From: Williamsia limnetica
Lineage (GTDB): Bacteria; Actinomycetota; Actinomycetes; Mycobacteriales; Mycobacteriaceae
Length of the DNA stretch: 64,000 nt
Direction: 5' to 3'
Assembly (NCBI RefSeq): GCF_003217475.1
Contig: NZ_QJSP01000009.1
Location: 186,001-250,000 of the forward strand
The notes beneath the pieces are model-generated. The model was not told the DNA's origin and searched no databases. It saw only the letters and a program-made list of their open reading frames with translations. Shown here one piece after another: positions 34,165 through 49,398 of this stretch (positions are counted from its first letter, which is position 1; each line of letters opens with the position of its first letter). Position numbers and translations under genes: made by a program.

Positions 34165-35094
34165 TCAAGGCAGCACGATCACCTTGCCTGCGATTGGCCC
34201 GGCAGCTGCCTGCATGTGGAGGTCGGGCAGTTCGGCGAGTGGTATCCGTTGTGTTACCTCAACGGTCAGCGCGCCGGCGTCGACCAGGGACACGATCTCG
34301 GCAAGACGTGTGCGGTTCGGCTGAACGAACACGGTGGCAGCCCGCACATTCCGGGTCTTGTCGTCGGGGGTCGCCATGAACGCGGTGGTGCTGACCACGA
34401 CGCCGCCGTCGCGAACGGCTGTGACATACGTGGCGAATTGTTCGGGTTCGATGGGAGCGAGGTTGAGCAGTACGTCGACCTGCCCGTCGAGGACATCGAG
34501 TAACGCGGTGTTGGTGTGGTCGATGACGTGGTCGGCGCCAGCGGCGCGGACAGCGTCAATGCTGCGTGGGCTTCCTGTCGCAATGACCTGGACGCCTGCG
34601 CGCTTGGCCAGTTGAATCGCGTATTTGCCGACAACACCGCCCGCGCCGACGATCAGCACGCTCTGGCCGGCGATCAGTTGTCCGTCGTCGAACAGCGCCT
34701 GCCAGGCCGTGAGGGCCACAGAGGGTAGTGCCGCGGCGTCGGCCAACTGAATGCTGTTGGGGGCGTGCACCAGCGCCTCGGCCGGGGCGATCACGTACTC
34801 GGCTGCGCCGCCGTCAAGTTCCATCGGCAGGAACCCGATGACGGCGTCCCCGAGCGCAAGGCCTCTCACCCCTTCGCCGAGCGCATCAACCGTGCCCGAG
34901 ACGTCATATCCGGGGATGTGTGGCAAGACGATCGGGATCGGCAGAAATCCGGCTCGCATTCCGTTGTCGGCAGCGTTGAACGCTGACGCTGCCACACGCA
35001 CGCGAACCTGCCCGGCGGCCGGTGTCGGTAGCTCCACATCTCCGTACTGGAGGACCTCGGGACCGCCGACTTCGTGGAACTGAACTGCTTTCAT
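34165..35094 (-). CDS. Quinone-oxidoreductase-like zinc-free medium-chain dehydrogenase
   Basis: A 309-residue MDR-family enzyme. N-terminal MKAVQFHEVGGPEVLQYG, catalytic-domain IPGYDVSGTVDALG, and the NADPH site VLIVGAGGVVGKYAIQLAKR. No zinc-binding Cys cluster is seen, which fits the quinone oxidoreductase group. ATG 35094 has AGGAG six bases upstream. It is divergent from a MarR gene, with two matching operator-like repeats between them, so it is probably induced by an electrophile or quinone. Confidence 0.88.
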   Translation of the reverse strand: MKAVQFHEVGGPEVLQYGDVELPTPAAGQVRVRVAASAFNAADNGMRAGFLPIPIVLPHIPGYDVSGTVDALGEGVRGLALGDAVIGFLPMELDGGAAEYVIAPAEALVHAPNSIQLADAAALPSVALTAWQALFDDGQLIAGQSVLIVGAGGVVGKYAIQLAKRAGVQVIATGSPRSIDAVRAAGADHVIDHTNTALLDVLDGQVDVLLNLAPIEPEQFATYVTAVRDGGVVVSTTAFMATPDDKTRNVRAATVFVQPNRTRLAEIVSLVDAGALTVEVTQRIPLAELPDLHMQAAAGPIAGKVIVLP

Positions 35095-35114
35095 GGTGAA
35101 CTCCTCCGACAAAG

Positions 35115-35132
35115 TGCTTCGAATGTGAAGCA
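35115..35132. promoter_or_regulatory. Candidate MarR operator, site 1
   Basis: TGCTTCGAATGTGAAGCA has perfect TGCTTC/GAAGCA arms with a 6-base spacer. It lies about 20 bases upstream of the oxidoreductase start. Site 2 repeats the same arms 37 bases away. Confidence 0.6.
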
Positions 35133-35151
35133 ACTTTGACCAAGGTAACAG

Positions 35152-35169
35152 TGCTTTGGAATCGAAGCA
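35152..35169. promoter_or_regulatory. Candidate MarR operator, site 2
   Basis: TGCTTTGGAATCGAAGCA has TGCTT/AAGCA arms and the same 18-base length as site 1. It lies 17 bases upstream of the marR start, as expected for autorepression. Confidence 0.6.
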
Positions 35170-35186
35170 ACCGGTAGGCTGCTGTC

Positions 35187-35702
35187 ATGAGTGGAATCAG
35201 TGGGGAACAGGGGCTGACCCCTGTGGAGCTGGGCGCGTACCTAGCGTTGATAGAGGTGAGCAGCTTGGTGCGTCACGCAGTGGAACAGCAGCTACAGGAG
35301 GCGGGGAATCTCAGTTACGTGCAGTTCCAGTTGCTCGCCACACTCGGCGACGCACCGACCGGCAACCGGCGAATGACCGAACTGGCCGACGGCGTGGTCT
35401 ACAGCAGAAGCGGACTCACGTACCAGGTGGGTCTCCTTGAACGAGCGGGATTGGTGACGCGCAGCCCGTCCGAAGAAGACGAACGCGGAATCACCGTCAC
35501 AGTGACCGAAGCTGGACGCCGAGTGCTCGCGGCCGTGTTCCCCGGGCACATCGCCATAGTCCGGCAGCTACTCTTCGACGCATTGGACCAAAACGATGTC
35601 GACGACCTTGCCCGCGTACTCGCCAAAGCCCGAGACCACATGCGGACGATCCCGCCACGCTCGGCCAAACCCCGCCGAGGCGCCGGTCGACGGTCGGAGT
35701 GA
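35187..35702 (+). CDS. MarR family regulator
   Basis: A 171-residue MarR protein. The winged helix covers RRMTELADGVVYSRSGLTYQVGLLERAGLVTRSPSEEDERGITVTVTEAG-like text (residues about 50-110, here abbreviated: the RxMTELAD helix and the DERG wing). It is divergent from the quinone-oxidoreductase-like gene and most likely represses both genes through the two 18-base repeats. Its C-terminus is basic (RSAKPRRGAGRRSE). Confidence 0.9.
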   Translation: MSGISGEQGLTPVELGAYLALIEVSSLVRHAVEQQLQEAGNLSYVQFQLLATLGDAPTGNRRMTELADGVVYSRSGLTYQVGLLERAGLVTRSPSEEDERGITVTVTEAGRRVLAAVFPGHIAIVRQLLFDALDQNDVDDLARVLAKARDHMRTIPPRSAKPRRGAGRRSE

Positions 35703-36467
35703 CAAGCTGGACTCCTGGGGCTCGCGCTTCGTCGCTGGAGCAAACGACGACACATTCAAGTTTCGTGCTGGTCGTCGTCACCGTGTGTTGCTGCTGATGT
35801 ATCACGTAGTGGCGCAGATCTTTAGGTGGATACGAAGCGTTTGCACGCCGCCCGAATTCCTGCTGTTAGTCGAGGATGGCGGTCGCTTCGACTTCGACGA
35901 GGACGTCGGGTTCGAAGAGGTAGTCGACTCCGATCAAGGATGCGGGTGACATAGGATGTCAGCCGCAGGACGTGACAAACAACCCGAACTCACACATCGA
36001 TCCAGATCGCCGGATCCCTAGGTGCAGCGAAGGCCCGCCCACATACCGCTCTTGGCGCCTGAACAACACCGCAGAATGAGCCGCCAGACCTATCCGCCCA
36101 AGATAAACCCGCGTACGCGTATGCACACCAAATGCAAGCGACCTACCTGCCACTGGTTCTTAGCTGGCGAGTACACAGAGCCAGTGGGCAACTTTAGCTC
36201 GACGCTCTGTGCGGGCTTCAAGTGCACGCCGCACGGCCACATGATCGCCGGGGCAGGCCCATTTGACGAGTCAGAGCGGTCAGCGTTTCAGTGAGTTGCC
36301 GTGCCTACAAATGATTCTCAGGTCTTTGCCACTATGAATGGGTCGGGCTTCGTCTGCCCGTGTGGCCTAGACGACTGCTGGTGGGGAATAGCCCCGACGA
36401 GCCGCACTTTGCAAACCGACTCGACTCGTCGCCCCATCTCGCTTACCGGATCGGGTAGTCGGCGGGC
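35703..36467. other. Gene-poor stretch at a probable rearrangement junction
   Basis: About 765 bases whose only recognisable content is a 28-residue RidA remnant (35866-35952). The part from about 35953 to 36467 shows short frames without family features and looks less GC-rich than the flanks. It separates the MarR locus from the catabolic cluster. Confidence 0.5.
35866..35952 (-). pseudogene. RidA/YjgF C-terminal remnant
   Basis: On the minus strand 28 codons read MSPASLIGVDYLFEPDVL and then VEVEATAILD before TAA. This is the usual C-terminus of RidA (enamine/imine deaminase) family proteins. The first 100 or so residues of the family are absent: upstream sequence on that strand does not continue the match. 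The gene was cut at about 35950, probably by insertion or deletion. Confidence 0.7.
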
Positions 36468-36878
36468 TCAAGCGGTCGGGAGTTGTTCGACGTAGGCGAG
36501 TACCTGGAATGGGTCGAGCGATTCGGTCACTTTGATCAGTTTGCCGTCTCGTAGGCGGAACATGATCAGGTAGTTGTTGTTGTACTTGGCCTCGCCCGGA
36601 CCGATTCCTTCCGTCGTGGCTTCCACGACGACGCGGTCCTCTTCGCCGGTCACGCTGTGTACATCGAATCGGAACTGGTCGAAGGGTCCTAGGAACCCCT
36701 CTAGGAGGGCCTTGGTGCCGGCCTTGTCGTTGGGGCCACCGTATTCGAAGCGATCTTTGCGATTTGGGAGTGTCCATGTTCCTTCGTCGTCGATGAGGTC
36801 GAACAATGCTGGGAAGTTGCGGTCGCTGATGTACTGGCAGGCGTTGAGGACAATTTCTTTGTTCTTCTCGACGGACAT
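36468..36878 (-). CDS. SnoaL-like / NTF2-fold small protein
   Basis: A 136-residue protein of the NTF2-like fold: N-terminal helix NKEIVLNACQYISDRNFPALFDLIDD, then GTWTLPNR and C-terminal strands LIMFRLRDGKLIKVTESLDPFQVL. Such proteins act as isomerases, cyclases or hydrolases of small hydrophobic substrates or as binding proteins. It has its own promoter region carrying the shared palindrome at 37057, so it probably belongs to the regulon of the TetR gene next to it. Confidence 0.75.
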   Translation of the reverse strand: MSVEKNKEIVLNACQYISDRNFPALFDLIDDEGTWTLPNRKDRFEYGGPNDKAGTKALLEGFLGPFDQFRFDVHSVTGEEDRVVVEATTEGIGPGEAKYNNNYLIMFRLRDGKLIKVTESLDPFQVLAYVEQLPTA

Positions 36879-37403
36879 TGAGAGCCTCCTGGGGTAGCGG
36901 ATTGAGCCGATGAACGCGGGGCCGCAGGCGGTGTGGGGCCTTGTATCGCTAGAACACGGAACCTATTTCAGTGTTGTCGCGCGTGACGCGCCTCGCTGGT
37001 GCTTTCGTGGTGGCGGAGAACGTCACCCTTGAAACACAGTGTGATTGTAAGCAGAGTTGACTAACGAGTCAATCGTGATGGTGGGTTAATTGCGTGAGTT
37101 TCTACGAAATTGCCAGCTCGAGCCAAAGGGCGTGGGGATGAAATCTGACTGCAAAGTCAACTTTCGGCACGCTGAGAATGCTCGGTCCTCGACAAGGCAG
37201 ACGGGGCCCCGTCAACTGACGAGTGACACCTACGGGGGACTGCCCGTGTATGAGCGCGAAATATCCTGCCACCAAGTGGATTAAACCTCTTCGATGCGGC
37301 GCGACTCAGATAGTGGTGTGTACTTCCCCTGAAGCTGAGCGTTTGGCATGACTTGCCAGAGGGGATCGCGGGTGCCGCGCCAGCTATGTACCGGGCGGCT
37401 GGT
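36879..37403. other. Promoter region upstream of SnoaL-like gene
   Basis: About 525 bases without a convincing gene. It includes the palindrome at 37057-37072 and further AGTCAAC half-sites near 37155 and 37209. The rest shows no feature I recognise. Confidence 0.5.
37057..37072. promoter_or_regulatory. Shared operator TTGACT-N4-AGTCAA, copy 1
   Basis: TTGACT-AACG-AGTCAA is a perfect 6-base inverted repeat, about 180 bases upstream of the SnoaL-like start. The same arms and spacing recur at 42998 in the divergent promoter of the same gene cluster. Confidence 0.7.
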
Positions 37404-38075
37404 TTACTTCAGGCCGAGAGCTTGAGACCACAACCGGGTCAGGGTGGTGATGGCAGCTTCCTCATCAAACCTGACCCCGTGGATGAACCACATCTGAGTG
37501 AAGGATTCGATCATCCCGCCGAGCGCGGCGGCGGCGATGGTGGGGTCGAGGCTAGGGTCTACGTCGCCAGTTCGTTGCAGGTGGCGGATACCGGCTTCGT
37601 TGCGCCGGAGAAATAGATCTCTGATCTGCAGTTTTAGTGTCCGGAACTGGTCGTCGCGGATCGCCATCTCGTCTATGACGGCGATGAGCCTGGCGTTTCG
37701 TGCTGCGGCGTTGAAGTACTGGCGGTTCGCCGCCTCGATCTTGGTGATGGCGTCGTCGCCGACGGTGCCGGTGGTCTGCGATGCGGTGAACATCTCGCCT
37801 GCGACCACACTGAACAGTTCGTGTAAGACGTCGTCTTTTGTTTCGAAGTAGTGGTAGAAAGTGCCATACGACGTACCGGAGCGCTCAGCTATATCCGAGA
37901 TTCGTGTATCTCGAAATCCCTTTTCTTCGAACAATTCCCGCGCTGCAGCGACCAGTGCGCCGCGGGTACGCCACCCACGTTGGGTAGTGGGCTTTTCTTG
38001 CTGGGAGGGCCGCGTTGGTGCCACCGGGGCAGTGGCAATTCCGGTATTGGACCGGCTGCCGTCTTGTAGTGTCAC
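37404..38075 (-). CDS. TetR family regulator of the catabolic cluster
   Basis: A 223-residue TetR protein. After a flexible 30-residue lead, the DNA-binding domain is TRGALVAAARELFEEKGFRDTRISD with GTSYGTFYHYFETKDDVL (residues about 35-85). The ligand domain has the FadR/KstR-like look (IESFTQMWFIHGVRFD). It is last in the hydrolase-to-ligase run, 52 bases from the ligase gene, and is the natural owner of the TTGACT-N4-AGTCAA sites. The inducer is probably an acyl-CoA or the pathway substrate. Confidence 0.88.
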   Translation of the reverse strand: MTLQDGSRSNTGIATAPVAPTRPSQQEKPTTQRGWRTRGALVAAARELFEEKGFRDTRISDIAERSGTSYGTFYHYFETKDDVLHELFSVVAGEMFTASQTTGTVGDDAITKIEAANRQYFNAAARNARLIAVIDEMAIRDDQFRTLKLQIRDLFLRRNEAGIRHLQRTGDVDPSLDPTIAAAALGGMIESFTQMWFIHGVRFDEEAAITTLTRLWSQALGLK

Positions 38076-38127
38076 GTCGTCCTTCCGGGAGATCGGCCGC
38101 AGATCAAATGTAGTTTACGGTACCGAG

Positions 38128-39720
38128 TCAGGTCGCCGCCGCCTCGCGCAGAGCCACCTTCTTGATTTTTCCAGAGGGGGTGAGTGGGAGTGAGTCGACA
38201 ACGTGGATGTGGGCAGGAACTTTGTACTTTGCCAGCTGCTGGCGACATCTGTTGAGAAGCGCCTCGACATCGACGGTGGCTCCTGGTGTCGGCACGACGT
38301 AGGCGTGACCGACTTCGCCGTAGAGGGCGTCGGGTACTCCGATGACCGCGCTCATAGCCACAGCCTCGTCGCTGGCCAGGACGTTCTCTATTTCCACGGG
38401 ATAGACGTTGTATCCGCTACGGACGTACATCTCTTTCCTGCGCCCGCACAGCGCTATTCGTCCATCTGAGCGCTGGGTGGCCATGTCGCCGGTGTCGAGC
38501 CACCCATCGGAGTGAAACGTTCGTTGGGTATCGGCCGGGTTGTCCCAGTAGCCGCCGGCGACGCAGCCACCGCGGATGTGCAGTTCGCCCTCAGTGTCGG
38601 GGGGCAAGGGTTGTCCGGTGTCGTCGGCGATGCGCGCTTGGAAGTCTCCGATTGCCACACCTAAGGTCGCAACCAAGGTTTCGAGGTCGTCGCCGAGCGC
38701 TGAGATGATGCATCCGCCCGAGGTCTCGGACAAGCCGTAGAGGTTGGCCATCCGGGCGCCGGGGAACGTGTCGAGGATGCGGCGACCCATGGCGGGTTCG
38801 ACGTTCGAACCTCCGATGATGCAGGTCCGGACCGAAGAAGTGTCCGTGCCCGCGAACTCCTCGAGGTCCATCATCATGGTGTACATGGTCGGTACACCGA
38901 TGTAGATGGTGACTTTGTGGCGCTCGATCGTCGTTAGTGCCAGCTGGGGGTTGTAGCGAGGCAGTAGTGCCACGGTGCTTCCGGCGACCATGGAAGCGGT
39001 GACGGTGCAGGTCATCCCGCCCACGTGATTGAGCGGCATATGGCCGATGGCGACGTCGTTGGCAGTTTGGTGCAGATGGCCCGCCTGGGCAGTGGCCGAC
39101 GACAGGATGCTGGCGTGCGTCAGAGTGGCGCCCTTTGGCCGGCCGGTGGTGCCCGAGGTGTACAGGATCACCGCCGGATCGTCCGGTTGCACTTGTGCCT
39201 GAAGAGCGGTGAGGGTCTGCGAATCAGGCGCAGTGACAAGGTCCTCCCAGCGGTGACTACCGGCAAAGCCTTCGCCGCTGAGGAAAACGAAGTGGCGCAC
39301 CGCCTGAATGCGGGGGCGCAGACCTTGAAGGAATTCGACGAAGTCGAAGTTGTTGTCGCTGGTGCAGCACACGAGCATGACGGCGCCGGATTGGTTCAGC
39401 ATGTAGTCGAACTCGCGGTCCCGGTAGGCAACGTTCAGTGTGACCAGCACGGCGCCGATCTTCGCTGCGGCAAACCAGGTAATCAGCCACTGGGCGGAGT
39501 TGGGTGCGGCGATGGCGATGCGGTCGTGGCGCGTAATTCCCAATGAGAGCAGACCCGCGGCGAACTGGTCGACCTGCTCAGCGAACTGGCCGTAGCTCAA
39601 GCTCTGGTCTGGACACAGTAGGAACGGCGTGGATGCGTGAAGCGATGTTTCGTCCAGCAGGGCCGGCAGGGTCGCGGCGCTGTGGGTGAGCGTGTGATCG
39701 TGCTCGGCATCGATGGTCAT
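38128..39720 (-). CDS. Acyl-CoA synthetase (AMP-forming, FadD-like)
   Basis: A 530-residue adenylate-forming ligase. It shows the P-loop ILYTSGTTGRPKGATLTH near residue 190, YGLSETSG near residue 325, the hinge GWLDTGDMATQRSDGRIALCGR and the C-terminal catalytic Lys in LTPSGKIKKVALRE. It converts a free acid to its CoA thioester. AAAAGGA precedes ATG 39720. In this cluster it should act on the acid released by the Baeyer-Villiger and hydrolase steps. The chain length cannot be read from the sequence. Confidence 0.92.
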   Translation of the reverse strand: MTIDAEHDHTLTHSAATLPALLDETSLHASTPFLLCPDQSLSYGQFAEQVDQFAAGLLSLGITRHDRIAIAAPNSAQWLITWFAAAKIGAVLVTLNVAYRDREFDYMLNQSGAVMLVCCTSDNNFDFVEFLQGLRPRIQAVRHFVFLSGEGFAGSHRWEDLVTAPDSQTLTALQAQVQPDDPAVILYTSGTTGRPKGATLTHASILSSATAQAGHLHQTANDVAIGHMPLNHVGGMTCTVTASMVAGSTVALLPRYNPQLALTTIERHKVTIYIGVPTMYTMMMDLEEFAGTDTSSVRTCIIGGSNVEPAMGRRILDTFPGARMANLYGLSETSGGCIISALGDDLETLVATLGVAIGDFQARIADDTGQPLPPDTEGELHIRGGCVAGGYWDNPADTQRTFHSDGWLDTGDMATQRSDGRIALCGRRKEMYVRSGYNVYPVEIENVLASDEAVAMSAVIGVPDALYGEVGHAYVVPTPGATVDVEALLNRCRQQLAKYKVPAHIHVVDSLPLTPSGKIKKVALREAAAT

Positions 39721-39823
39721 GGGTAGGTCCTTTTACTAGCGTCAGGCGAGGGTCGGACTTGTAGTGGATCGGCGACGTGCCAGGTCGGTATGTCGAGACT
39801 GGCACGTCGCCTGGTGGTGCGTC

Positions 39824-40108
39824 CTACGATTCGACGAGGTCGGGATGCACTGCCCTCGATGGGTGAAAGTGCAGGTAGTCGTAGTGAGCGACTCCCGCGC
39901 GCACCATGGGATCGTTACCCATGAGAGCGCGAACTTCGTTCTCGTCGTCGCCCCTCGCGATGATCAGACCGCCGGTGAACGGGCGGCGGGGTCCTGAGGC
40001 GATGAATCGTCCAGCGTCATAACATTGGTCGAGGAACGCCAAGTGTTGGGTAACGACTGATTCACCCCGTTCCAGGGGACGGGTGTAGGTGCTGGAGATG
40101 ACGAACAT
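39824..40108 (-). CDS. YciI-like protein
   Basis: A 94-residue protein of the YciI fold with the conserved HLAFLDQCYDAGRFIASGPRRP and LMGNDPMVRAGVAHYDYLHF. The His and Asp of this signature are thought to form an active site, but the family function is poorly defined. It lies 28 bases behind the monooxygenase gene, so a role in handling a lactone or ester product is conceivable. Confidence 0.8.
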   Translation of the reverse strand: MFVISSTYTRPLERGESVVTQHLAFLDQCYDAGRFIASGPRRPFTGGLIIARGDDENEVRALMGNDPMVRAGVAHYDYLHFHPSRAVHPDLVES

Positions 40109-40136
40109 GCGCGCCTGCTTTCGTTTGTACGGTCGG

Positions 40137-41783
40137 TCAGTTGTGGGCTTTGACGGGAACGTTCGAGAACTCGAAGCCGGCGAAATCGTTGCCTGCGCTC
40201 TTCTCGAGTTCCTGGAAGTATCCGGCGGCCCCGCCGAAGTAGAACAGCACGCGGCGCGGTTTGCCGGGGGTGTTGGCGCCCAGGTACCAACTGTTCGCCG
40301 ATTCCCCGCTGGGGAGCAGAGTCATGTTGAATACGTCCGATACGTGCGCAGTCCACTGCTCGGCGGCCTCCTCGGTGGGCTGCATTCGGTCATAACCGTT
40401 GTCTTTCATGAAGTTCAGGGCGCGGCTGAGCCAGTTGACGACCCCTTCGATGATGACCGGAATGTTGGCGTACGCGCTCTGCGGTCCGCAAATCATGAGC
40501 ATGTTGGGAAATCCTGGTGTCCCAATACCCAAGAATGTTTCGGGGCCGCCAGCCCAGTACTGGGACAACTTCACCCGGTCCTCGCCGCGGATATCGATGT
40601 TGTTCAAAGCGCCGGTGACCGCGTCGAACCCGGTAGCGAGGATGATGACGTCGAACTTGTAGTCACGGTCGCTGGTGCGCAGACCGTTGGCGGTGATCGC
40701 CTCGATCGGGTTGCTCTGAATGTCGACGAGGGTGACGTTGTCACGGTTGAAGGTTTCGTAGTAGTTGGTGCCTGAGGGTGGCCGCTTGGACACGTATGGG
40801 TACCCACGTGGGGTGAGTAGTTCGGCGACCGCTGGATCTTTGACGGTCTCTGCGATCTTCTTGCGGATGAAATCGGCAGCAGCATCGTTGGATCGCTGAT
40901 CGAGAATCAGATCGTCGAAGGTCTCGAAGACGAAGTGGAAACCGCCGTTCTGCCAGCCTTCTTCGAAGATGCGCTCGCGTTCGGCCTCCACAACGACATC
41001 GTCATACATTCGCCCCGCCGGGTCCATGGGGAACCCGAAGACGTGGCCTCGGGCTTTGTCCCACACCGCGGCATAATCCGCTTTGATCTTTTGGCGAAAC
41101 TCATCGTCGAGATCGTGGTTCTGGGCGGGCATGACGTAGTTGGGGGTCCGCTGGAACACGGTCAGATGCTCGGCGGCTTCGGCCACGTGTGGGATGGTCT
41201 GGATGCCGGAGGCACCGGTGCCGATTACGGCCACTCGCTTGCCGGTCAGGTCGACGTGCTCCTTGGGCCACTGCGAGGTGCGGTAGATGTTTCCGGTGAA
41301 ACTGTTGATGCCCTCGAACTGAGGTTCCTGCGGCACCGACAGATGCCCCAGCGCGGGCAGGAAGTACGTGCAGGTGAACTGCTGCCCGTTCTCTGTGGTG
41401 ATGGTCCACAAGTTGCTCGGCTTGTCGTACGTCGCGGCCAGGACGCGGTGGCTGAAACGGATGTTGCGACGTACGTCGAATCGGTCGGCGACGAACGCGA
41501 TGTACTTCTGCACTTCCACCTGACCGGGGTAACGCTCGGACCAGTTCCATTCCTGTTCGATTTCCGGGAAAGGGAAGCAGTACGACCAACTTTCGCTGTC
41601 AGTACGAGCTCCTGGGTAGCGGTTCCAATACCACGTTCCTCCGACGTCTGTTCCCGCTTCGAGTGCTACCGCAGAGAGCCCGAGTTTCTGCAGTTCGATG
41701 AGCATGCGTATGCCGCCGAATCCAGCACCGATGACCACGGCATCGGTGTGTACGGGCGTTGCGGTTGATCCCTGGTCGGACAT
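40137..41783 (-). CDS. Flavin-containing (Baeyer-Villiger-type) monooxygenase
   Basis: A 548-residue class B flavoprotein monooxygenase. The FAD motif is VIGAGFGGIRMLIEL, then GGTWYWNRYPGARTDSES, and the NADPH motif VAVIGTGASGIQTIP. The Baeyer-Villiger fingerprint FxGxxxHxxxWP is present as FTGNIYRTSQWP with Arg (about residue 168) in place of His. It would insert oxygen next to a carbonyl to give an ester, using NADPH and O2. The esterase gene lies immediately upstream, as in many BVMO operons. The altered fingerprint leaves plain hydroxylation as an alternative. Confidence 0.88.
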   Translation of the reverse strand: MSDQGSTATPVHTDAVVIGAGFGGIRMLIELQKLGLSAVALEAGTDVGGTWYWNRYPGARTDSESWSYCFPFPEIEQEWNWSERYPGQVEVQKYIAFVADRFDVRRNIRFSHRVLAATYDKPSNLWTITTENGQQFTCTYFLPALGHLSVPQEPQFEGINSFTGNIYRTSQWPKEHVDLTGKRVAVIGTGASGIQTIPHVAEAAEHLTVFQRTPNYVMPAQNHDLDDEFRQKIKADYAAVWDKARGHVFGFPMDPAGRMYDDVVVEAERERIFEEGWQNGGFHFVFETFDDLILDQRSNDAAADFIRKKIAETVKDPAVAELLTPRGYPYVSKRPPSGTNYYETFNRDNVTLVDIQSNPIEAITANGLRTSDRDYKFDVIILATGFDAVTGALNNIDIRGEDRVKLSQYWAGGPETFLGIGTPGFPNMLMICGPQSAYANIPVIIEGVVNWLSRALNFMKDNGYDRMQPTEEAAEQWTAHVSDVFNMTLLPSGESANSWYLGANTPGKPRRVLFYFGGAAGYFQELEKSAGNDFAGFEFSNVPVKAHN

Positions 41784-41841
41784 TCGGTCACTCCTTGATT
41801 GGTTCGATGAAAGGTGCAGCGAGCGCGCGGTTACCCACCCG

Positions 41842-42753
41842 TCAGTTCACTGCCAGGTGGGGGCGCAGCCAGGCCGCCGCCGCTGCAATGGCCGCGTCTG
41901 CTTCTGGTGCGCGCCCGGCCATGAAGGTGAACACGTGCTGCTGATCGGGCACTGTACGAAGTTCGACGTCCACGCCGGCCTGCCCGGCCCGCTCGGCGAG
42001 ACGCTCGGAGTCGCTGAGCAACGCTTCAGCTTCGCTGACGGTGATGTGCAGCGGTGGGATGCCGGAGAAATCGGCGTGCAACGGGTTGGCGAGGCCGTCT
42101 GTCGCGGAACCGTCTGATCCCAAATACATTTGCGACATCATGGTCACCACTCCGAGGCTGATCAACGCGTCGTTGTCGGCGTTGCTCTCGAGGGTTTTGC
42201 CCACCAGTTCCATATCCAACCAGGGGGACACGGTGACGATGGCGGCCGGGAGTTCCTCACCGAGGTCGCGTAGTTTCAAGACCGAACTGATAGCAAGGTT
42301 CCCGCCGGCCGAGTCGCCGGCAACCGCTAGGTCCGCACCCGAGAATCCCTGCGCATGTAACCACTGGTGCGCGGCGACCGCATCATCGATCTGAGCCGGG
42401 AACGGGTGCTCGGGGGCGAGTCGGTAGTCGAGCACAAACGCCCGCACGCCAGCGGCTTTGGCCAGATGGCCGGCGACTTTACGGTGACTATGGACAGTGT
42501 TTCCTACGAAACCACCACCATGCGTATACAGGATCGCCTTATCCGCAGGTGCGCCAGCGGGCACGCACCACAGCCCGCGGACTTCCTCGGTGTCGACCTC
42601 GGCGTAGGTGACGTCTTCGGGTTCGGCGGCCTGAACCGCGAGCTCTTCGAAAATCGACCGCATCGCAGCCAGGCCCATCTCCGGGTTCGCTGCCAAACGG
42701 TCAGTAATCGATCGGTAGTGCGCCTTCAAAGCTGCGGACTCGGTACTGGGCAT
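41842..42753 (-). CDS. Alpha/beta hydrolase, hormone-sensitive-lipase family
   Basis: A 303-residue esterase. The oxyanion-hole motif is HGGGFVGN near residue 85, the nucleophile elbow GDSAGGN near residue 155, and the catalytic His lies in VPDQQHVFTFMAG. ATG 42753 has GAGGAGG four bases upstream. It is first in the operon with the monooxygenase 58 bases downstream and would split the ester made by it into an alcohol and an acid. Confidence 0.92.
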   Translation of the reverse strand: MPSTESAALKAHYRSITDRLAANPEMGLAAMRSIFEELAVQAAEPEDVTYAEVDTEEVRGLWCVPAGAPADKAILYTHGGGFVGNTVHSHRKVAGHLAKAAGVRAFVLDYRLAPEHPFPAQIDDAVAAHQWLHAQGFSGADLAVAGDSAGGNLAISSVLKLRDLGEELPAAIVTVSPWLDMELVGKTLESNADNDALISLGVVTMMSQMYLGSDGSATDGLANPLHADFSGIPPLHITVSEAEALLSDSERLAERAGQAGVDVELRTVPDQQHVFTFMAGRAPEADAAIAAAAAWLRPHLAVN

Positions 42754-42895
42754 GATGCCTCCTCGGCGTAACGGTTGTGCCAGTTGAAACGGGGCGCGTC
42801 GTGGGCGTCGCAGGCTGTCCGCCGCACGGCCACATCTGGATCGATTCGTGTGCGCGGTCACCACTAACAGGCCTTGGCTGTGATCGTAGACACAG

Positions 42896-42911
42896 TTGAT
42901 CGAGCAGTCAA
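42896..42911. promoter_or_regulatory. Degenerate operator copy
   Basis: TTGATC-GAGC-AGTCAA keeps one perfect half-site and the 4-base spacing of the shared operator; the other half differs at two positions. It lies on the hydrolase side of the divergent promoter. Confidence 0.45.
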
Positions 42912-42997
42912 CTAAAAGGTAAACATGACTCGGGGTCTGTCGGAATACTCGTAGTGTTGCGGCCCTCAAGCTGCGAAGACTTATCGAAATCGCCGAC

Positions 42998-43013
42998 TTG
43001 ACTGACAAGTCAA
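42998..43013. promoter_or_regulatory. Shared operator TTGACT-N4-AGTCAA, copy 2
   Basis: TTGACT-GACA-AGTCAA, perfect arms, identical half-sites and spacing to the copy at 37057. It lies about 170 bases upstream of the carboxylase start. Confidence 0.7.
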
Positions 43014-43180
43014 CTAAGAGTTATATGAGACAGGCAAGGCTTGGCGGGTAGTCGACCCAGACCCAGCGATGCTGCAGCGTCGGACAGCGCGACCAGGTAT
43101 TGGCGATCTCAACAAACGAGGTTGATATTCGTGCTCTCGCGACTTGTTCACTTGACTTCACTTATCGATCGAGGTGTTTT

Positions 43181-44779
43181 ATGACTGTCATTTCCACACA
43201 GTTCGATACTGAGTCCGAGCAGTTTCATCTCGACAGTCAGGCGATGCTCGACGCGCTCGAACCGTTGCAGACCCTGTCCGCTCAGGTGCTCGCGGCAGGT
43301 GGGGACAAGTCTGTCGAGCGGCATCGGGCGCGAGGCAAACTCCTCGCTCGCGAGCGGGTGGATCTGCTCCTCGACGAGGATGCGCCATTTCTTGAATTGT
43401 CCTGCTACGCAGGTGCACACGACTCCTCCGAGCAACCTGGTGGCCGGCTCATCACCGGGATCGGGCCGATCCAAGGTGTGGAGTGCATGGTCATCGCCAA
43501 TCAGTCGACGGTCAAAGGCGGATCGCTCAATCCTGATGCCGTCGCCAAACAGCTCCGCGCTCTGGATATAGCCGAACGCAATCGGCTTCCGGTGGTGACC
43601 ATCATCGAATCTGGAGGCGCAGACCTGCCGCAACAGGCCGACATTTTCGTCCCCGGCGGGCGTACCTTTCGCGAGTTGACCAGGCTCACTGCTGCCGGGA
43701 TTCCCACCATCTCGTTGGTGTTCGGGAGTTCGACCGCGGGCGGGGCCTATATGCCGGGTATGAGCCAATACACAGTGCTGGTCAAGCAGGCCGCGTCGGT
43801 GTACTTGGGCGGCCCACCGTTGGTGAAGATGGCCATCAACGAGGACATCGATGACGAGTCCCTCGGCGGCGCCGAAATGCACGCCCGCGTCTCCGGGCTA
43901 GCTGACTACCTCGCCGAGGACGAACGTGACGCGCTGCGCCTCGGCCGACAAATAGTGGCCGATCTGCAGTGGACCAAGGCTGGGCCCGGGCCCACGTTGC
44001 CCGCCGATCCACCGGCCTATGACCCCGAGGAGCTGCTTGCGTGCGCGGCAGCCGACGCCAAACGATCGGTCGAGGTCCGCGAGATTCTGGCCCGGGTCCT
44101 CGACGGATCACGGTTCAACGAGTTCAAACCGTTGTACGGCACCCAGTTGGTCACGGGGTGGGGATCGATCGCCGGGTTTCCGGTCGGCATCCTCGCCAAC
44201 AACGGCATCCTGTTCTCCGACGAGGCCAACAAGGGCGCACACTTCATTCAGCTGGCCAATGCACGCAACATTCCGTTGGTGTTCGTCCAGAACATCACCG
44301 GGTTCATGGTCGGATCGGCCGCAGAACGCGGCGGCATCATCAAAGACGGCGCCAAGCTGATCAACGCGGTATCCAATTCGGCTGTCCCGCACCTGACTTT
44401 GATGATCGGCGCATCCTATGGCGCGGGCAACTATGCGATGTCCGGACGTGCATACGACCCCCGCTTTGTCTTCAGCTGGCCCAACCACCGAATCGCGGTC
44501 ATGGGCGGGCCCCAGCTCGGAGGCGTTATGTCGATCATCCGCAGGTCTGCTGCCGACCGCGCGGGAGTGCCCTACAGCGACACCGAAGACGCCCGGGTTC
44601 GCCGCGAGACCGAAGAAATGATCGACAGCCAGTCCGGCGCGATCTACGCCACCGGAAGGATCTGGGACGACGGCGTGATCGACCCCCGCGACACCCGGGC
44701 CGTCCTGGGTCTGGCGCTGTCGGCCACCCACTCGGCTCCGGTCCGCGGCACCGACCACTTCGCCACCTTCCGATTGTGA
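43181..44779 (+). CDS. Acyl-CoA carboxylase carboxyltransferase (beta) subunit
   Basis: A 532-residue carboxyltransferase of the methylcrotonyl/geranyl-CoA carboxylase type. It has RGKLLARERVDLLLDEDAPF at the N-terminus, SGGADLPQQ near residue 145, STAGGAYMPGMS near residue 185 and MSGRAYDPRFVFSWPN in the C-terminal half. It transfers carboxyl from biotin to the gamma-carbon of a beta-methyl enoyl-CoA in these relatives. ATG 43181 has GAGGTG upstream. The alpha subunit follows after one base. Confidence 0.9.
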   Translation: MTVISTQFDTESEQFHLDSQAMLDALEPLQTLSAQVLAAGGDKSVERHRARGKLLARERVDLLLDEDAPFLELSCYAGAHDSSEQPGGRLITGIGPIQGVECMVIANQSTVKGGSLNPDAVAKQLRALDIAERNRLPVVTIIESGGADLPQQADIFVPGGRTFRELTRLTAAGIPTISLVFGSSTAGGAYMPGMSQYTVLVKQAASVYLGGPPLVKMAINEDIDDESLGGAEMHARVSGLADYLAEDERDALRLGRQIVADLQWTKAGPGPTLPADPPAYDPEELLACAAADAKRSVEVREILARVLDGSRFNEFKPLYGTQLVTGWGSIAGFPVGILANNGILFSDEANKGAHFIQLANARNIPLVFVQNITGFMVGSAAERGGIIKDGAKLINAVSNSAVPHLTLMIGASYGAGNYAMSGRAYDPRFVFSWPNHRIAVMGGPQLGGVMSIIRRSAADRAGVPYSDTEDARVRRETEEMIDSQSGAIYATGRIWDDGVIDPRDTRAVLGLALSATHSAPVRGTDHFATFRL

Positions 44780-44780
44780 G

Positions 44781-46805
44781 ATGACTGTGAACACCACCCC
44801 CATCAGGACACTGCTCATTGCCAACCGCGGCGAGATCGCCCGGCGCGTCATCCGTACCGCCCGCGCCTTGGGTATACGGACGGTTGCGGTCTACTCGACC
44901 CCCGACGTCCGATCCCCCCACGTCACCGACGCCGACTTCGCGGTGCCCATCGGTGGTGCCAGCAGTGCCGAGTCCTACCTGATGTGGGACAAAATACTCG
45001 ACGCCGCCACGCGCACAGGCGCAGACGCCATCCATCCCGGATATGGCTTCCTCTCAGAAAATGCAGAGTTCGCCGAGGCCTGTGAGGCGGCAGGCATCGT
45101 CTTCGTCGGCCCTGACCCGGACTCCATCCGAGAGATGGGTCTGAAAGACAGGGCCAAAGAGTGGGCCCGCAAGGCCGAGGTACCGGTCCTGCTCGACGCG
45201 GTCATCACCGGCGAGGACACCGATGCGTGGACAGCCGCCGCCGCCGAGGTCGGCTTCCCATTGCTGGTCAAAGCCGTCGCGGGAGGCGGCGGTAAGGGGA
45301 TGCGCTTGGTCGAACGTCCTGTCGATGTTGTCGAGGCCATCGCCGCCGCGCGGCGCGAGGGATTGAATCTGTTCGGCAACGCCACCGTGTTTCTCGAGCG
45401 CTACCTGAGTGCATCCCGGCACATCGAGATCCAGGTCTTCGGAGACAAGCATGGCAATGCCGTACACCTCGGGGAACGGGAATGTTCCATCCAGCGGCGA
45501 CATCAAAAGGTGCTCGAAGAAGCGCCCTCGCCGGTCATCACCGCCGATGTTCGGCAACGCATGGGCGCCACCGCCGTGTCGCTGGTCCGCGAACTCGGTT
45601 ACATCGGCGCCGGCACCGTGGAGTATCTGTTCGACGACACCACCGGTGGCTTCTACTTCCTGGAGATGAACACCAGGCTGCAGGTCGAACACCCGGTCAC
45701 CGAAGAGGTCACCGGGCTAGATCTGGTCGCGCTTCAACTAAGAGTGGCACGCGGCGAGCAGCTCGGCTTCGAACAATCCGATGTCCAGATCAATGGTCAT
45801 GCCATCGAAGTCCGGCTCTACGCTGAAGACCCTGCCGCCGACTACGCGCCCACGCCGGGCACCCTGCATCGCTACGAACATCCGGATCGAGCTGGGCTGC
45901 GGTACGAGGACGGAATCGCCGCGCCGTCACAAATCTCCTCGTTCTACGACCCCATGATCGCCAAGATCATCGCCCATGGCGCGACCCGTTCCGAAGCTGC
46001 GTTCACTTTGGCCGCAGCCCTCGACGGCACCCAGGTGCACGGCGTCACCACCAACAGAGCCTTCCTGGCGGCACTGCTACGCGATCCGGACTACCTCGCA
46101 GGGGCAACCCGGACCGACTTCCTCGAGCACCACCCCCAGTTGCTCGACCCGCCGATGTCGACCCCATGGCCCGTGCACCTGGCCGCCGCCGTCGCCACTG
46201 GCACCGCCCGCCGCAAGGCCTCGGACCCAACTCACGGTCTCGCCCGGCCGGGATTTCGGCCCCTGGCCACCCGGCTGCTGACTCACGCAACGTGGCATCG
46301 CGCCGGGGACTCGACGCCGTTGGAGGCGAACTATCACCTCGGTGGGTGGTCCGGCCAGACCGACCTGACCATCGTCGTCGACGACGAGTCACACGGATTC
46401 ACCCTCAGCGACCTCACCACCGACAGCGTGCGCATCAACTACGACGGTGTGGACTACCCGTGCACGGTCTGGACCTATCCCGATGGGTCCGTATGGGTCA
46501 ATGACGCCGGCAGCCAGTCCGGTTGGCACCCAGCGCCCCGACTGCCCGACCCCGACGATCTCGCCGCCACCGCTCTAGGACCGGTCAACGAAATCCCCGG
46601 AACCGTGGTCCACATCGGCGTCAAGGTGGGAGACAGCGTCACTGCCGGCCAGAAACTGGTGGTGGTCGAGGCGATGAAGATGGAACACCCAGCCACCGCG
46701 GCGACTGATGGCGTTGTCGAGAAGATCAACGTCTCCGTCGGCCAGTACGTCGACGCGCACACCGTCCTGGTCACCCTCACCGCACCGCAAGAGGAGCAGT
46801 CATGA
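44781..46805 (+). CDS. Acyl-CoA carboxylase biotin carboxylase/carrier (alpha) subunit
   Basis: A 674-residue fused subunit. Residues about 8-450 are biotin carboxylase (LLIANRGEIARRVIRTARALG, the ATP-grasp loop AVAGGGGKGMRLV, EMNTRLQVEHPVTEEVTG). The C-terminal 70 residues are the biotinyl domain with EAMKMEHP, the Lys being biotinylated. Length and layout match methylcrotonyl- or geranyl-CoA carboxylase alpha subunits. It overlaps the DUF1446 gene by four bases (ATGA). Confidence 0.93.
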   Translation: MTVNTTPIRTLLIANRGEIARRVIRTARALGIRTVAVYSTPDVRSPHVTDADFAVPIGGASSAESYLMWDKILDAATRTGADAIHPGYGFLSENAEFAEACEAAGIVFVGPDPDSIREMGLKDRAKEWARKAEVPVLLDAVITGEDTDAWTAAAAEVGFPLLVKAVAGGGGKGMRLVERPVDVVEAIAAARREGLNLFGNATVFLERYLSASRHIEIQVFGDKHGNAVHLGERECSIQRRHQKVLEEAPSPVITADVRQRMGATAVSLVRELGYIGAGTVEYLFDDTTGGFYFLEMNTRLQVEHPVTEEVTGLDLVALQLRVARGEQLGFEQSDVQINGHAIEVRLYAEDPAADYAPTPGTLHRYEHPDRAGLRYEDGIAAPSQISSFYDPMIAKIIAHGATRSEAAFTLAAALDGTQVHGVTTNRAFLAALLRDPDYLAGATRTDFLEHHPQLLDPPMSTPWPVHLAAAVATGTARRKASDPTHGLARPGFRPLATRLLTHATWHRAGDSTPLEANYHLGGWSGQTDLTIVVDDESHGFTLSDLTTDSVRINYDGVDYPCTVWTYPDGSVWVNDAGSQSGWHPAPRLPDPDDLAATALGPVNEIPGTVVHIGVKVGDSVTAGQKLVVVEAMKMEHPATAATDGVVEKINVSVGQYVDAHTVLVTLTAPQEEQS

Positions 46806-48616
46806 CTCTGGGCCCACTTCGCATCGCAAACTGCTCGGGATTCTTCGGGGACCGGCTGTCGGCGGCGTACGACATGGTCCACGGCGAAGCGATCGACGTC
46901 CTCACCGGCGACTGGCTCGCAGAGCTCACCATGGGGGTGCTGGTCAAACAACGAAAGCGGAACGCAGACAAAGGTTTTGCAGGGACATTTGTCAGCCAGC
47001 TTGATCAGGTCCTCGAGACCTGTCTCGACCAAGGCATCAAGGTGGTCTCGAACGCCGGCGGACTCAACCCGCACGGGTGTGCCGCCCAGATCGCCGACAT
47101 CGCCCACCGCATCAACCGGCCGGTAACAATCGCCGTAGTCGACGGCGACGACGCCACTGATGCATTCGAGGAAGCCCGTCGAAGTGGCTGGCTCGCAGAG
47201 CACCTAGATACCGGCGAGCCATTCTCCATAGCGGGCCAAGATCCCGACGTTGTCAGTGCCTACCTCGGCGGGTGGGCGATCAAAGAAGCTCTCGATGCCG
47301 GCGCCGACGTCGTCGTAACTGGTCGTGTCACCGACGCCGCCATCATCCTGGGGCCGGCGGCCTGGCACTTCAGCTGGTCCAGAACGGACTGGGATGCTCT
47401 GGCGGGCGCAGTGGTTGCCGGGCACATCATCGAGTGCGGCGCCCAAGCCACAGGGGGAAACTTCTCGTTCTTCACCGAATTGGCCGGCATGGAAAGGACG
47501 GGGTTTCCCATCGCCGAGATCAGCGAAGACGGATCCTCAGTGATCACCAAACAGCCAGGCACCGGGGGCGCGGTCACTGTCGAAACCGTCACCGCCCAAC
47601 TGCTGTATGAGATCGACGGCCCTCGATACGCCAACCCCGACGTCATCGCTCGACTCGACACCGTGCGGCTCGCGCACATCGGAGAGGACAGAGTTCAGGT
47701 CTCGGGCGTCAAGGGTGAACCCGCACCCACGCACGTCAAGGTTGGGGCTTTGGTCTCCGGCGGATGGCGGAATGAGATCACCTTCGTCCTCACCGGTTCG
47801 GATATCGAAGCGAAAGCCGAACTCGCGCAAAGTGCTCTATGGGCAGCATTGCCCGAGGGCAAAGACTCGTTCCAGAACGTGACCGTCCGCCTGCTGCGCG
47901 CTGATCAACCCGATCCGGTCACCATGTCTGAGGCGGTTGCTCTGCTGACCATCACCGTGAACGACCCGTCACGGGAGAAGGCAACAGCCTTTCCGCGGGT
48001 GGCCATCGAAACAGGCTTGGCAAGCTACCCCGGGCTCTACTTCACGGCCCCGCCCTCACCGGCGAGTGAGATCAGTGTGTTCTGGCCGACTCTGATGCCG
48101 GCGGCCATCTTCCCGCAACGGTTCACGGTGGGGGAGAGGCACGTCGTCGTACCACCGCCATCGATGGACAGCACAGCGTCACCGATGGCTGCCCCCACCT
48201 CGGAGCCACGGTCTGAATTACCCACCGGCCCCACGGTGCGTCAGCCCCTGGGCTCACTGTTCGGGAGCCGCTCCGGTGACAAAGCAGGCAACGCGACACT
48301 AGGGGTCTGGGCGCGCACCGACGCCGCGCACGATTGGCTCCGGTCGTGGTGGACGCCTGATGCAATTCGTGAGCTGATCCCGGAAGCTGGGGAGTGCAGC
48401 CTGCGGGTGTGGGAGCTGCCGCACCTTCGAGCCTGCGGTGTGACCGTGGTGGGGCTGCTTGGTCGCGGCGTCGCGGCCAACCTCGACCTCGATTCGCAGG
48501 GTAAAGGTCTCGGGGAATACGTACGCGCGAAAGCAATCGACATCCCTACTGTCCTCGCCAACGAAAATCGCTATGTGGCGGGTCAATTCAGGACAACCGA
48601 AAGGATCGCGAGATGA
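46802..48616 (+). CDS. AtuA-like DUF1446 protein with C-terminal AtuA domain
   Basis: A 604-residue protein. Residues about 1-430 are the DUF1446 domain (LRIANCSGFFGDRLSAAYDM, KVVSNAGGLNPHG, VVVTGRVTDAAI). Residues about 480-590 are the smaller AtuA-type domain (LFGSRSGDKAGNATLGVWAR). AtuA is needed for citronellol and geraniol breakdown in Pseudomonas, but its reaction is not established to my knowledge. It overlaps both neighbours by four bases, so its product is tied to the carboxylase and hydratase steps. Confidence 0.88.
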   Translation: MTLGPLRIANCSGFFGDRLSAAYDMVHGEAIDVLTGDWLAELTMGVLVKQRKRNADKGFAGTFVSQLDQVLETCLDQGIKVVSNAGGLNPHGCAAQIADIAHRINRPVTIAVVDGDDATDAFEEARRSGWLAEHLDTGEPFSIAGQDPDVVSAYLGGWAIKEALDAGADVVVTGRVTDAAIILGPAAWHFSWSRTDWDALAGAVVAGHIIECGAQATGGNFSFFTELAGMERTGFPIAEISEDGSSVITKQPGTGGAVTVETVTAQLLYEIDGPRYANPDVIARLDTVRLAHIGEDRVQVSGVKGEPAPTHVKVGALVSGGWRNEITFVLTGSDIEAKAELAQSALWAALPEGKDSFQNVTVRLLRADQPDPVTMSEAVALLTITVNDPSREKATAFPRVAIETGLASYPGLYFTAPPSPASEISVFWPTLMPAAIFPQRFTVGERHVVVPPPSMDSTASPMAAPTSEPRSELPTGPTVRQPLGSLFGSRSGDKAGNATLGVWARTDAAHDWLRSWWTPDAIRELIPEAGECSLRVWELPHLRACGVTVVGLLGRGVAANLDLDSQGKGLGEYVRAKAIDIPTVLANENRYVAGQFRTTERIAR

Positions 48617-49398
48617 CCACATCGGATTCGGGTGCCGTGGTGCATCTTACGGTGGCACACGGCGTTGCGACCATCACCCTCGATTCCCCCGCGAACCGCA
48701 ATGCTCTGTCCAATCAACTACGCGCAGAGCTCGCCGAGAGCATCGAGAACGCCCTACGCGACGACTCCGTGCGGCTGTTGGTCCTAACCCACGCCGGGCC
48801 GGTCTTCTGCGCAGGAGCCGACCTCAAAGAGGCCCGCGACGCCGCCGCGTCACCTGCAGGTTTCGAGTTGGCTGGATTGCTTACCGCCGTGATGACAGCA
48901 GACAAACCGGTGATTGCACGCGTTGCCGGGCCGGCACGAGCCGGCGGTATCGGTCTGGTCGCCGCATGTGATCTCGTGGTCGCCACCGAAGCAGCAACCT
49001 TCGCTTTTTCGGAGGTCCGCATCGGCGTGGTCCCAGCGATCATCTCGGTTCCCCTGCGAGGCCGGGTCGCACCTCAAGCACTCCGAGAGCTCTTTTTGAC
49101 CGGCAACTACTTCGATGCGAAGCACGCGGCACAGATCGGTCTGGTCGACACCGTGACCAGCGAGGCTGACCTGGATGACGCCATCGACACACTGGCCGCC
49201 ACCCTGAAGTTGGCATCGCCGAACGCACTCAACGGTGCTAAGAAGCTACTGGGGCCGAACCGGCGTGACTTGGCCGAGGAAATGGCCCAGATGCAACAGC
49301 TCACCGCCCACTACTTCTCCTCCGAAGACGGCCAAGAGGGCATCCGTGCATTCGGTGAAAAACGTCTGCCATCCTGGGCCTCGTCTCTCCAGACCTGA
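48613..49398 (+). CDS. Enoyl-CoA hydratase/isomerase family protein
   Basis: A 261-residue crotonase-fold enzyme. It shows ITLDSPANRNALSNQLRAEL, the oxyanion-hole segment FCAGADLKEARD, and the second segment AGGIGLVAACDLVVATEAATFAFSEVRIG. Glu in SEVRIG is the likely catalytic residue. By position it corresponds to the methylglutaconyl- or isohexenylglutaconyl-CoA hydratase that follows the carboxylase in the Liu and Atu routes. Last gene of the four-gene operon. Confidence 0.9.
   Translation: MTTSDSGAVVHLTVAHGVATITLDSPANRNALSNQLRAELAESIENALRDDSVRLLVLTHAGPVFCAGADLKEARDAAASPAGFELAGLLTAVMTADKPVIARVAGPARAGGIGLVAACDLVVATEAATFAFSEVRIGVVPAIISVPLRGRVAPQALRELFLTGNYFDAKHAAQIGLVDTVTSEADLDDAIDTLAATLKLASPNALNGAKKLLGPNRRDLAEEMAQMQQLTAHYFSSEDGQEGIRAFGEKRLPSWASSLQT

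Follow-up and report, generated by a model that had tools for sequence, protein, structure and literature searches.

A conserved TetR-linked gene block of Williamsia limnetica that may couple Baeyer-Villiger oxidation of a branched cyclic ketone to gamma-carboxylation

The window analyzed here, a stretch of 64,000 nucleotides from Williamsia limnetica contig NZ_QJSP01000009.1, contains at positions 36468..49398 a block of ten genes in which a Baeyer-Villiger monooxygenase (BVMO)-like flavoprotein, a hydrolase, and an acyl-coenzyme A (CoA) ligase face a divergent operon for an acyl-CoA carboxylase, an AtuA-family protein, and a hydratase. We propose with moderate confidence, on sequence evidence, that this block is a single TetR-regulated catabolic unit for a cyclic ketone branched at carbon 3, most likely a terpenoid one. 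The proposal builds on what can be read directly from the DNA: gene content, conservation of the genes together, conservation of the operators, and the sequence subtype of the carboxylase.

CONTENT AND CONSERVATION OF THE BLOCK

Profile searches found the ten genes named by a first-pass annotation of this DNA to be open and intact, with the domains and order that it had given them (SnoaL_2, TetR_N, AMP-binding with its C-terminal domain, YCII, FAD/NAD(P)-binding monooxygenase, and Abhydrolase_3; Carboxyl_trans, biotin carboxylase with a biotinyl domain, AtuA with AtuA_ferredoxin, and ECH_1). Six minus-strand genes are separated from four plus-strand genes by a divergent gap of 427 bp. Transcription of the minus strand runs through hydrolase, BVMO-like flavoprotein, YciI-like protein, acyl-CoA ligase, and TetR, with the SnoaL gene following after a gap of 525 bp. 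On the plus strand, carboxylase beta is followed 1 bp later by alpha, in whose translation an AMKM biotin site is visible, and then by AtuA and the crotonase, each overlapping the preceding gene by 4 bp. These distances use two starts that differ from the first open-frame starts: the hydrolase probably begins at 42753 instead of 43008 and carboxylase beta at 43181 instead of 43100, because a ribosome-binding-site-like sequence precedes both and no family match was found upstream.

Comparison of the window with 28 kb from a second species of the genus (G001) gave one aligned stretch only (36336-49379, ~13.07 kb, 94% DNA identity), unchanged in the sensitive mode of blastn at E<=1e-5, between unrelated flanks. 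For scale, polA is 92% and the region of a second AtuA operon 86% identical between the two genomes. All ten genes have counterparts in G001, with protein identities of 89-99%. The set apparently moves as a module, given that the shared block sits in a different context in G001, where resolvase and phage-type integrase genes lie ~4 kb from it.

Co-occurrence across genomes, which the first-pass annotation had suggested as a check, extends beyond this pair, as most of the gene kinds recur in Dietzia kunjamensis pDK58, on the WAY2 and ZPP plasmids, and in Rhodococcus EPR-157. Identities between pDK58 and the window are 65-69% for TetR (by start chosen), 58% for carboxylase beta, 55% for the hydrolase, 54% for the BVMO, 49% for YciI, 46% for both AtuA and the hydratase, 45% for carboxylase alpha, and 29% for the ligase. 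Additional genes of pDK58 encode an acyl-CoA dehydrogenase, a mycofactocin-coupled short-chain dehydrogenase/reductase (SDR), and further SDRs; no SnoaL homolog was found in the 34 kb read. WAY2 and ZPP are closer to the window in carboxylase beta (90-91%) and hydrolase (60%) than in TetR (44-46%), and WAY2 encodes two BVMOs (55% and 49%); the same island holds two acyl-CoA dehydrogenases, a thiolase, a mycofactocin-coupled SDR, and a zinc-type reductase. In EPR-157, one contig carries a BVMO (53%), YciI (46%), and TetR (60%) together with a hydrolase and an acyl-CoA dehydrogenase that are 75% and 82% identical to those of Dietzia. Another contig carries carboxylase beta (86%), ligase (69%), a further acyl-CoA dehydrogenase, and a mycofactocin-coupled SDR. 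The hydrolase of the window is 55-60% identical to its counterparts in the Dietzia, WAY2, and ZPP clusters, and a SnoaL homolog (E<=1e-6) was found only in the G001 block among 14 compared loci. Positions 588585-588980 of NZ_CP046573.1 (WAY2) hold a small piece of a carboxyltransferase gene, 68% identical to the beta subunit of the window and near a mycofactocin-coupled SDR; a shorter piece is annotated in ZPP.

The regulator and the AtuA clade were also followed across 401 genomes of the family, in a scan whose first pass took 7 regulator and 3 AtuA candidates from each genome for scoring. TetR matches at E<=1e-50 occur in 5 of the 401 (the own genome, G001, EPR-157, G209, and G174). The gene lies in the same run as an AtuA-carboxylase operon in all but EPR-157; there, it shares a contig with the BVMO operon, and a different contig carries the carboxylase operon. 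AtuA proteins of at least 65% identity also occur in 5 of the 401 (the own genome, G001, G003, G209, and EPR-157), 4 of these being among the five TetR genomes. The hypergeometric P of this overlap, 2e-8, is a guide only, as it ignores kinship and uses a threshold picked after the list was seen. Carboxylase beta matches at E<=1e-178 are found in 233 of 397 genomes of the order; the AtuA-type carboxylase is common there, and adjacency is therefore what counts. Among 80 AtuA loci listed from species genomes (37 of which reach 20 kb, and which include the EPR-157 contig without the BVMO half), 6 have a BVMO-like gene (29-42%), and hydrolase, YciI, and TetR were not found at E<=1e-10.

The six of the 80 loci that have a BVMO-like gene are gammaproteobacterial and SAR86 ones (L042, L049, L053, L062, L065, and L069), where this gene is found within 10 kb; in SAR86 locus L053, the gene and the carboxylase operon diverge. 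In G174 (G174:C15:146001-166000, L264), a TetR of the window subfamily directly follows the carboxylase-AtuA operon, with a Peripla_BP_6 gene and another carboxylase pair behind it; one one-mismatch operator lies before the carboxylase.

OPERATORS SHARED BY THE TWO OPERONS

The palindrome TTGACT-N4-AGTCAA has two exact copies in the 6.35-Mb genome, at window positions 37057 and 42998; the motif was first read off these regions, so that its count there is no independent test. A promoter scan found one promoter in each gap (shuffle means, 0.4 in the divergent gap and 0.2 in the SnoaL gap), and the -35 boxes of both are overlapped by operators. A looser scan of the window with three mismatches was uninformative (16 sites, 13.9 expected).

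Support for the operator comes from places that were not used in defining it. In G001, four operator sites are kept at the same positions. In pDK58, the BVMO gene is preceded by one one-mismatch operator, two more of this quality lie in the interval from YciI to the carboxylase genes, and a further two-mismatch operator lies inside an SDR gene. EPR-157 has an exact operator before a mycofactocin-coupled dehydrogenase, a one-mismatch operator before carboxylase beta, and two two-mismatch operators in the 236-bp gap before the BVMO gene. WAY2 and ZPP, whose TetR is ~45% identical to that of the window, use the form TTGACA-N4-TGTCAA. Exact copies of this variant precede a run of acyl-CoA dehydrogenase, hydratase, ligase, and tetR genes as well as an SDR gene, and a one-mismatch copy lies ~50 bp before BVMO2 (BVMO2-reductase-hydrolase run). 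Two plasmid stretches of R. ruber contain no operator with up to two mismatches.

Both operons probably belong to a single TetR regulon, because the same operators lie at their promoters and are conserved in relatives. Without inducer, the TetR protein would sit on the palindromes over the -35 boxes. The first-pass annotation had treated the two halves as one functional unit and had named absence of co-regulation as a point that would speak against it; the shared operators point the other way, and the conserved block and the recurring gene set agree with a single unit. Four other one-mismatch sites of the genome (contigs C1, C2, C3, and C23) were rejected as members of the regulon, as their nearest genes look unrelated (a MarR-type regulator, an AbiEi_4 protein, a permease, and a CoA-transferase with a solute-binding protein).

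SUBTYPES OF THE CARBOXYLASE AND MONOOXYGENASE

Compared with solved structures over its full length, the carboxylase beta subunit scores best with methylcrotonyl-CoA carboxylase (MCC) beta of P. aeruginosa (551 bits), geranyl-CoA carboxylase (GCC) beta being sixth (491 bits). Its 101-residue pocket segment, in contrast, is matched best and without gaps by GCC beta (109 bits), followed by the two best MCC (95 and 93 bits). By the rule of PMC4673880, the two enzyme types differ at one position: GCC beta has a Gly there and no insertion, and MCC beta a Phe with three inserted residues in front of it. The window reads FVPGGRTF, its paralog on contig C24 FIPGGAMF, and the enzyme of contig C3 FPDRdhfGRIFF. 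Thus, the window subunit carries a Gly at the position of Gly162 in PMC4673880 (by count it aligns with residue 161 in the 5ikl chain, which is taken to be the same residue) and lacks the insertion. By this rule, the window carboxylase is of the GCC type and the contig C3 enzyme is a separate carboxylase of the MCC type. The gamma-carboxylating MCC/GCC lineage proposed in the first-pass annotation is in agreement with these sequences, which add the larger-pocket signature of GCC. Most close beta-subunit relatives in the fetched loci share the GCC-like form, which is therefore not special to BVMO-linked carboxylases.

The AtuA assignment is clear (PF07287, 525-526 bits; cut-off, 22.8); assigning it a function by fold was considered and dropped, as no solved relative was found at E<=1. 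The hydratase reaches 148 bits with the AtuE-type family NF004227, where the cut-off is 426. The own genome contains a second AtuA operon (G000:C24:1-20000, L083), with a hydratase, two acyl-CoA dehydrogenases, a GCC-type carboxylase, and a P450 gene some kilobases away.

The flavoprotein matches phenylacetone monooxygenase (PAMO) over its full length (521 bits), as well as OTEMO (471) and steroid monooxygenase (467). This homology to solved enzymes, together with two nucleotide-binding motifs, is as expected for a type I BVMO, and in the alignment the KR and RYPGxxxD segments are kept, which we take to hold the catalytic Arg and Asp of PAMO. The entry by BVMO plus hydrolase suggested earlier is thus supported at the level of sequence. 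Only G001 among 60 relatives searched has a protein with more than 50% identity to this BVMO, and the plasmid matches are two R. ruber records at 66-67%. In a 42-row tree, the window BVMO falls in a supported set of ten actinobacterial rows (100/99), namely window, G001, Dietzia, EPR-157, WAY2_1, R. oxybenzonivorans, DMU1, DK180, and two R. ruber; its closest relative is G001, followed by R. ruber (100/100). The set may mark a functional subgroup. Several of its members were seen beside hydrolase genes. A single origin of the carboxylase-linked BVMOs was rejected, as linkage to a carboxylase must change three times on the tree.

PROPOSED PATHWAY

From these families we infer each catalytic step, the order of the steps, and the substrate. 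The BVMO would insert oxygen into the ketone to give a lactone (or ester), which the HSL-family hydrolase would open to a hydroxy acid branched at carbon 3, and the AMP-forming ligase would convert this acid to its CoA thioester. The GCC-type carboxylase would then carboxylate the gamma carbon of the 3-branched 2-enoyl-CoA and the crotonase would hydrate the product. Cleavage of the 3-hydroxy-3-methylglutaryl-CoA (HMG-CoA) lyase type, for which one gene on contig C12 of the own genome exceeds the family cut-off, and then thiolysis would finish the route. AtuA would be needed at some step. A pathway step for the SnoaL and YciI proteins was considered and dropped, its sole basis being the conservation of YciI.

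By ordinary chemistry, menthone would give 6-hydroxy-3,7-dimethyloctanoate, and the accessible parts of two reviews (PMC4097962 and PMC7794910) give 6-hydroxy-3-isopropenylheptanoate as the product of dihydrocarvone. Both acids are branched at carbon 3, which stops ordinary beta-oxidation, and gamma-carboxylation of the GCC/MCC type serves to pass such a branch.

The carboxylation calls for a 2,3 double bond. As the first-pass annotation had noticed, open frames and domain searches reveal no acyl-CoA dehydrogenase (AtuD-type) in the block; in both the window and G001, the block is also without the reductase-like gene that accompanies BVMO2 in WAY2 and without a mycofactocin-coupled dehydrogenase. 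The extra genes of Dietzia, EPR-157, and WAY2 would be the alcohol and acyl-CoA dehydrogenases that a saturated alcohol or ketone needs. In the own genome, a mycofactocin-coupled SDR on contig C37 is 56% identical to that of Dietzia.

ALTERNATIVE EXPLANATIONS

The acyl-CoA dehydrogenases that accompany this module in relatives weaken the earlier idea that the released acid is already unsaturated; the idea keeps some standing because the block has neither such a dehydrogenase nor the WAY2 reductase-like gene. A shortcut of this kind, which we rate as somewhat unlikely, would start from a 3-methyl cyclic enone (piperitone-like) whose ring double bond survives BVMO oxidation and lactone opening to give cis-3-methyl-2-enoyl-CoA directly; with the double bond carried through, neither enzyme would be needed. 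The blocks of the window and G001, which lack this reductase and dehydrogenase pair, also have in common a BVMO whose fingerprint lacks the His. Such a ring-derived 3-methyl-2-enoate would have the cis geometry of the GCC substrate, cis-geranyl-CoA being listed as such in the part of PMC4097962 available. Alternatively, dehydrogenases encoded elsewhere, for example the two of the C24 operon, may serve. This would fit a saturated ketone (menthone- or dihydrocarvone-like) as the substrate, a special case of the proposed unit whose probability overlaps with that of the whole and which we consider plausible, though tentative. The acyl-CoA dehydrogenases of the Dietzia, EPR-157, WAY2, and ZPP clusters argue for it, as do those of C24 and the 103 candidates from the first pass of a dehydrogenase search in the own genome, but neither this genome nor G001 has an ortholog of the Dietzia enzyme at E<=1e-90, the conserved block contains none, and the genes nearest the four other one-mismatch operators are of other kinds.

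It is unlikely that the block holds two pathways under one inducer, with BVMO, hydrolase, and ligase serving one ketone and the carboxylase operon serving acyclic terpenes or branched fatty acids. The halves form one block in G001 and one island in Dietzia, WAY2, and ZPP, and the same operators stand on both halves in the window, G001, and Dietzia; the separate contigs of EPR-157 would suit two pathways, as would close carboxylase operons with other entry genes. One of these, in G003 (G003:C7:48001-68000, L165), is a carboxylase-AtuA operon (beta, 78%) with an FAD-binding hydroxylase, SnoaL_4, an amidohydrolase, and an FAA hydrolase upstream, which suggests that several different entry routes have been joined to the carboxylase module. 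That the flavoprotein is another FMO-type oxygenase, with no ketone-to-ester step, is quite improbable given its full-length matches to PAMO and OTEMO, the kept KR and RYPGxxxD segments, and the hydrolase gene beside or near the BVMO in the Dietzia, EPR-157, WAY2, and ZPP sets; what speaks for it is the fingerprint discussed below. More improbable still is a second leucine-route MCC: the full-length ranking of the beta subunit would favor it, whereas the gapless pocket match to GCC beta, the Gly in place of the MCC Phe, the missing insertion, and the MCC-form enzyme on contig C3 all argue otherwise.

Several observations weigh against a single unit for a branched cyclic ketone. Operators with up to one mismatch are not enriched genome-wide (7 sites; reversed control, 11), WAY2 and ZPP have only a two-mismatch site of their variant in the gap in front of the carboxylase, and no operator with up to two mismatches was found in the first 20 kb of G003 or at the Pseudonocardia locus. 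Close carboxylases occur in G003 (48 kb read) and Pseudonocardia L004 (22 kb read) with no BVMO there, and the ligase is only 29-32% identical to those of Dietzia and WAY2. The BVMO fingerprint, which we take to be FxGxxxHxxxW(P/D), reads FTGNIYRTSQWP in the window, with Arg where His is usual; His is replaced in nine rows of the ten-row set (by Arg, Asn, Val, Gln, or Ser). Moreover, the module may have exchanged its entry enzyme and may act on a different ketone, because the window BVMO groups with the two R. ruber plasmid proteins and not with the carboxylase-linked ones of Dietzia, EPR-157, and WAY2_1; an incomplete gene table annotates no carboxylase near the R. ruber BVMOs.

FEATURES AND SURROUNDINGS OF THE BLOCK

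The coordinates of the genes, operators, and promoters are collected in Table 1. A zinc-type reductase and a MarR gene to the left (34165-35702) were rejected as members, lying outside the block shared with G001 (the reductase is ~31% identical to that of WAY2). A Leu-type ABC transporter with a binding protein and two each of ATPases and permeases (52666-58461) is encoded between the module and polA; it likewise lies outside the shared block and was discarded as the uptake system of the module, no supporting evidence having been found. A few kilobases to the left of the module (26580-32833) are a MoaA-like gene, and a molybdopterin oxidoreductase with a reductase and an AraC-type regulator.

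Table 1. Genes and predicted regulatory sites of the block, in window coordinates
Feature	Position	Strand	Remarks
SnoaL_2-domain protein, 136 aa	36468..36878	-	two operator copies upstream
Promoter, sigma-70-like, TTGACT-N17-TACAAT	37044..37072	-	promoter scan; before SnoaL gene; overlaps exact operator
Operator palindrome TTGACTAACGAGTCAA	37057..37072		exact; before SnoaL gene
Operator CTGACTGCAAAGTCAA	37145..37160		one mismatch; matching site in G001
TetR-family regulator, 223 aa	37404..38075	-	last gene of minus operon
AMP-forming acyl-CoA ligase, 530 aa	38128..39720	-	
YciI-like protein, 94 aa	39824..40108	-	
Type I BVMO-like flavoprotein, 548 aa	40137..41783	-	
HSL-family alpha/beta hydrolase (esterase/lactonase), 303 aa	41842..42753	-	preferred start
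Promoter, sigma-70-like, TTGACT-N17-TACGAT	42883..42911	-	promoter scan; for hydrolase-to-tetR operon; overlaps operator
Operator TTGATCGAGCAGTCAA	42896..42911		two mismatches; also in G001
Operator palindrome TTGACTGACAAGTCAA	42998..43013		exact; divergent gap
Candidate plus-operon promoter, TTGACT-N17-TTATAT	42998-43026	+	by eye; not called by scan
Acyl-CoA carboxylase beta (carboxyltransferase), 532 aa	43181..44779	+	preferred start
Acyl-CoA carboxylase alpha (biotin carboxylase + biotinyl domain)	44781..46805	+	
AtuA-family protein (DUF1446) with AtuA_ferredoxin domain, 604 aa	46802..48616	+	
Enoyl-CoA hydratase/isomerase family protein, 261 aa	48613..49398	+	

COMPARISON WITH KNOWN SYSTEMS

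The block shares AtuA, both subunits of a GCC-type carboxylase, a crotonase, and a CoA ligase with the Atu pathway of Pseudomonas (atuABCDEFGH). Unlike that pathway, it has no SDR (in the Atu pathway presumably AtuB/AtuG) and no AtuD-type gene, its hydratase is below the AtuE-type cut-off, and it adds BVMO, HSL hydrolase, YciI, and SnoaL proteins. If the proposal is correct, AtuA-family operons gain a role beyond acyclic terpenes. The MCC of leucine/isovalerate utilization (Liu) resembles the window carboxylase in lineage and subunit layout and differs in its pocket signature, the own genome having a separate MCC-type enzyme. The pDK58 cluster of Dietzia has the same gene kinds and the same operator type; in contrast to the window, it adds an acyl-CoA dehydrogenase and SDRs, its ligase is distant, and the SnoaL gene is missing from the stretch compared. 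If the proposal holds, the regulator and operator would be usable for finding further such modules by sequence.

OTEMO presumably acts on a 3-methyl cyclopentenone and yields an unsaturated lactone. The camphor route of Pseudomonas putida, to which this step belongs (PMC4097962), has a type I BVMO in common with the module, but OTEMO uses a CoA ester, and the accessible part of that review does not mention an AtuA-carboxylase operon for the route.

The literature search found no report joining GCC with a Baeyer-Villiger enzyme, in a coverage that left out most subscription papers, and the only carboxylase mentioned in the available part of PMC7794910 is an epoxide carboxylase. The parts are known; the combination and its regulon are apparently, and provisionally, new. 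The first-pass annotation knew of no described pathway with this gene set, which appears to stand for the joined combination and does not for the entry as far as the CoA stage. This entry resembles a route of R. erythropolis DCL14 in which, in the available parts of PMC4097962 and PMC7794910, a monocyclic monoterpene ketone is converted by a BVMO to an epsilon-lactone, opened by MlhB, a lactone hydrolase that accepts menthone-derived lactones as well, activated with CoA, and passed to "beta-oxidation." The likeness of this carveol/dihydrocarvone and menthone route (ketone, BVMO, lactone hydrolase, CoA activation, and 3-branched acids) is drawn from route descriptions and not from enzyme sequences; unlike in the module, the later steps are given there only as beta-oxidation and no acyl-CoA carboxylase is named. 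The two descriptions stop at beta-oxidation, although the branch at carbon 3 blocks its ordinary form. A GCC-type carboxylase under the regulator of a BVMO and a lactone hydrolase would, if the proposal holds, fill this gap after lactone opening.

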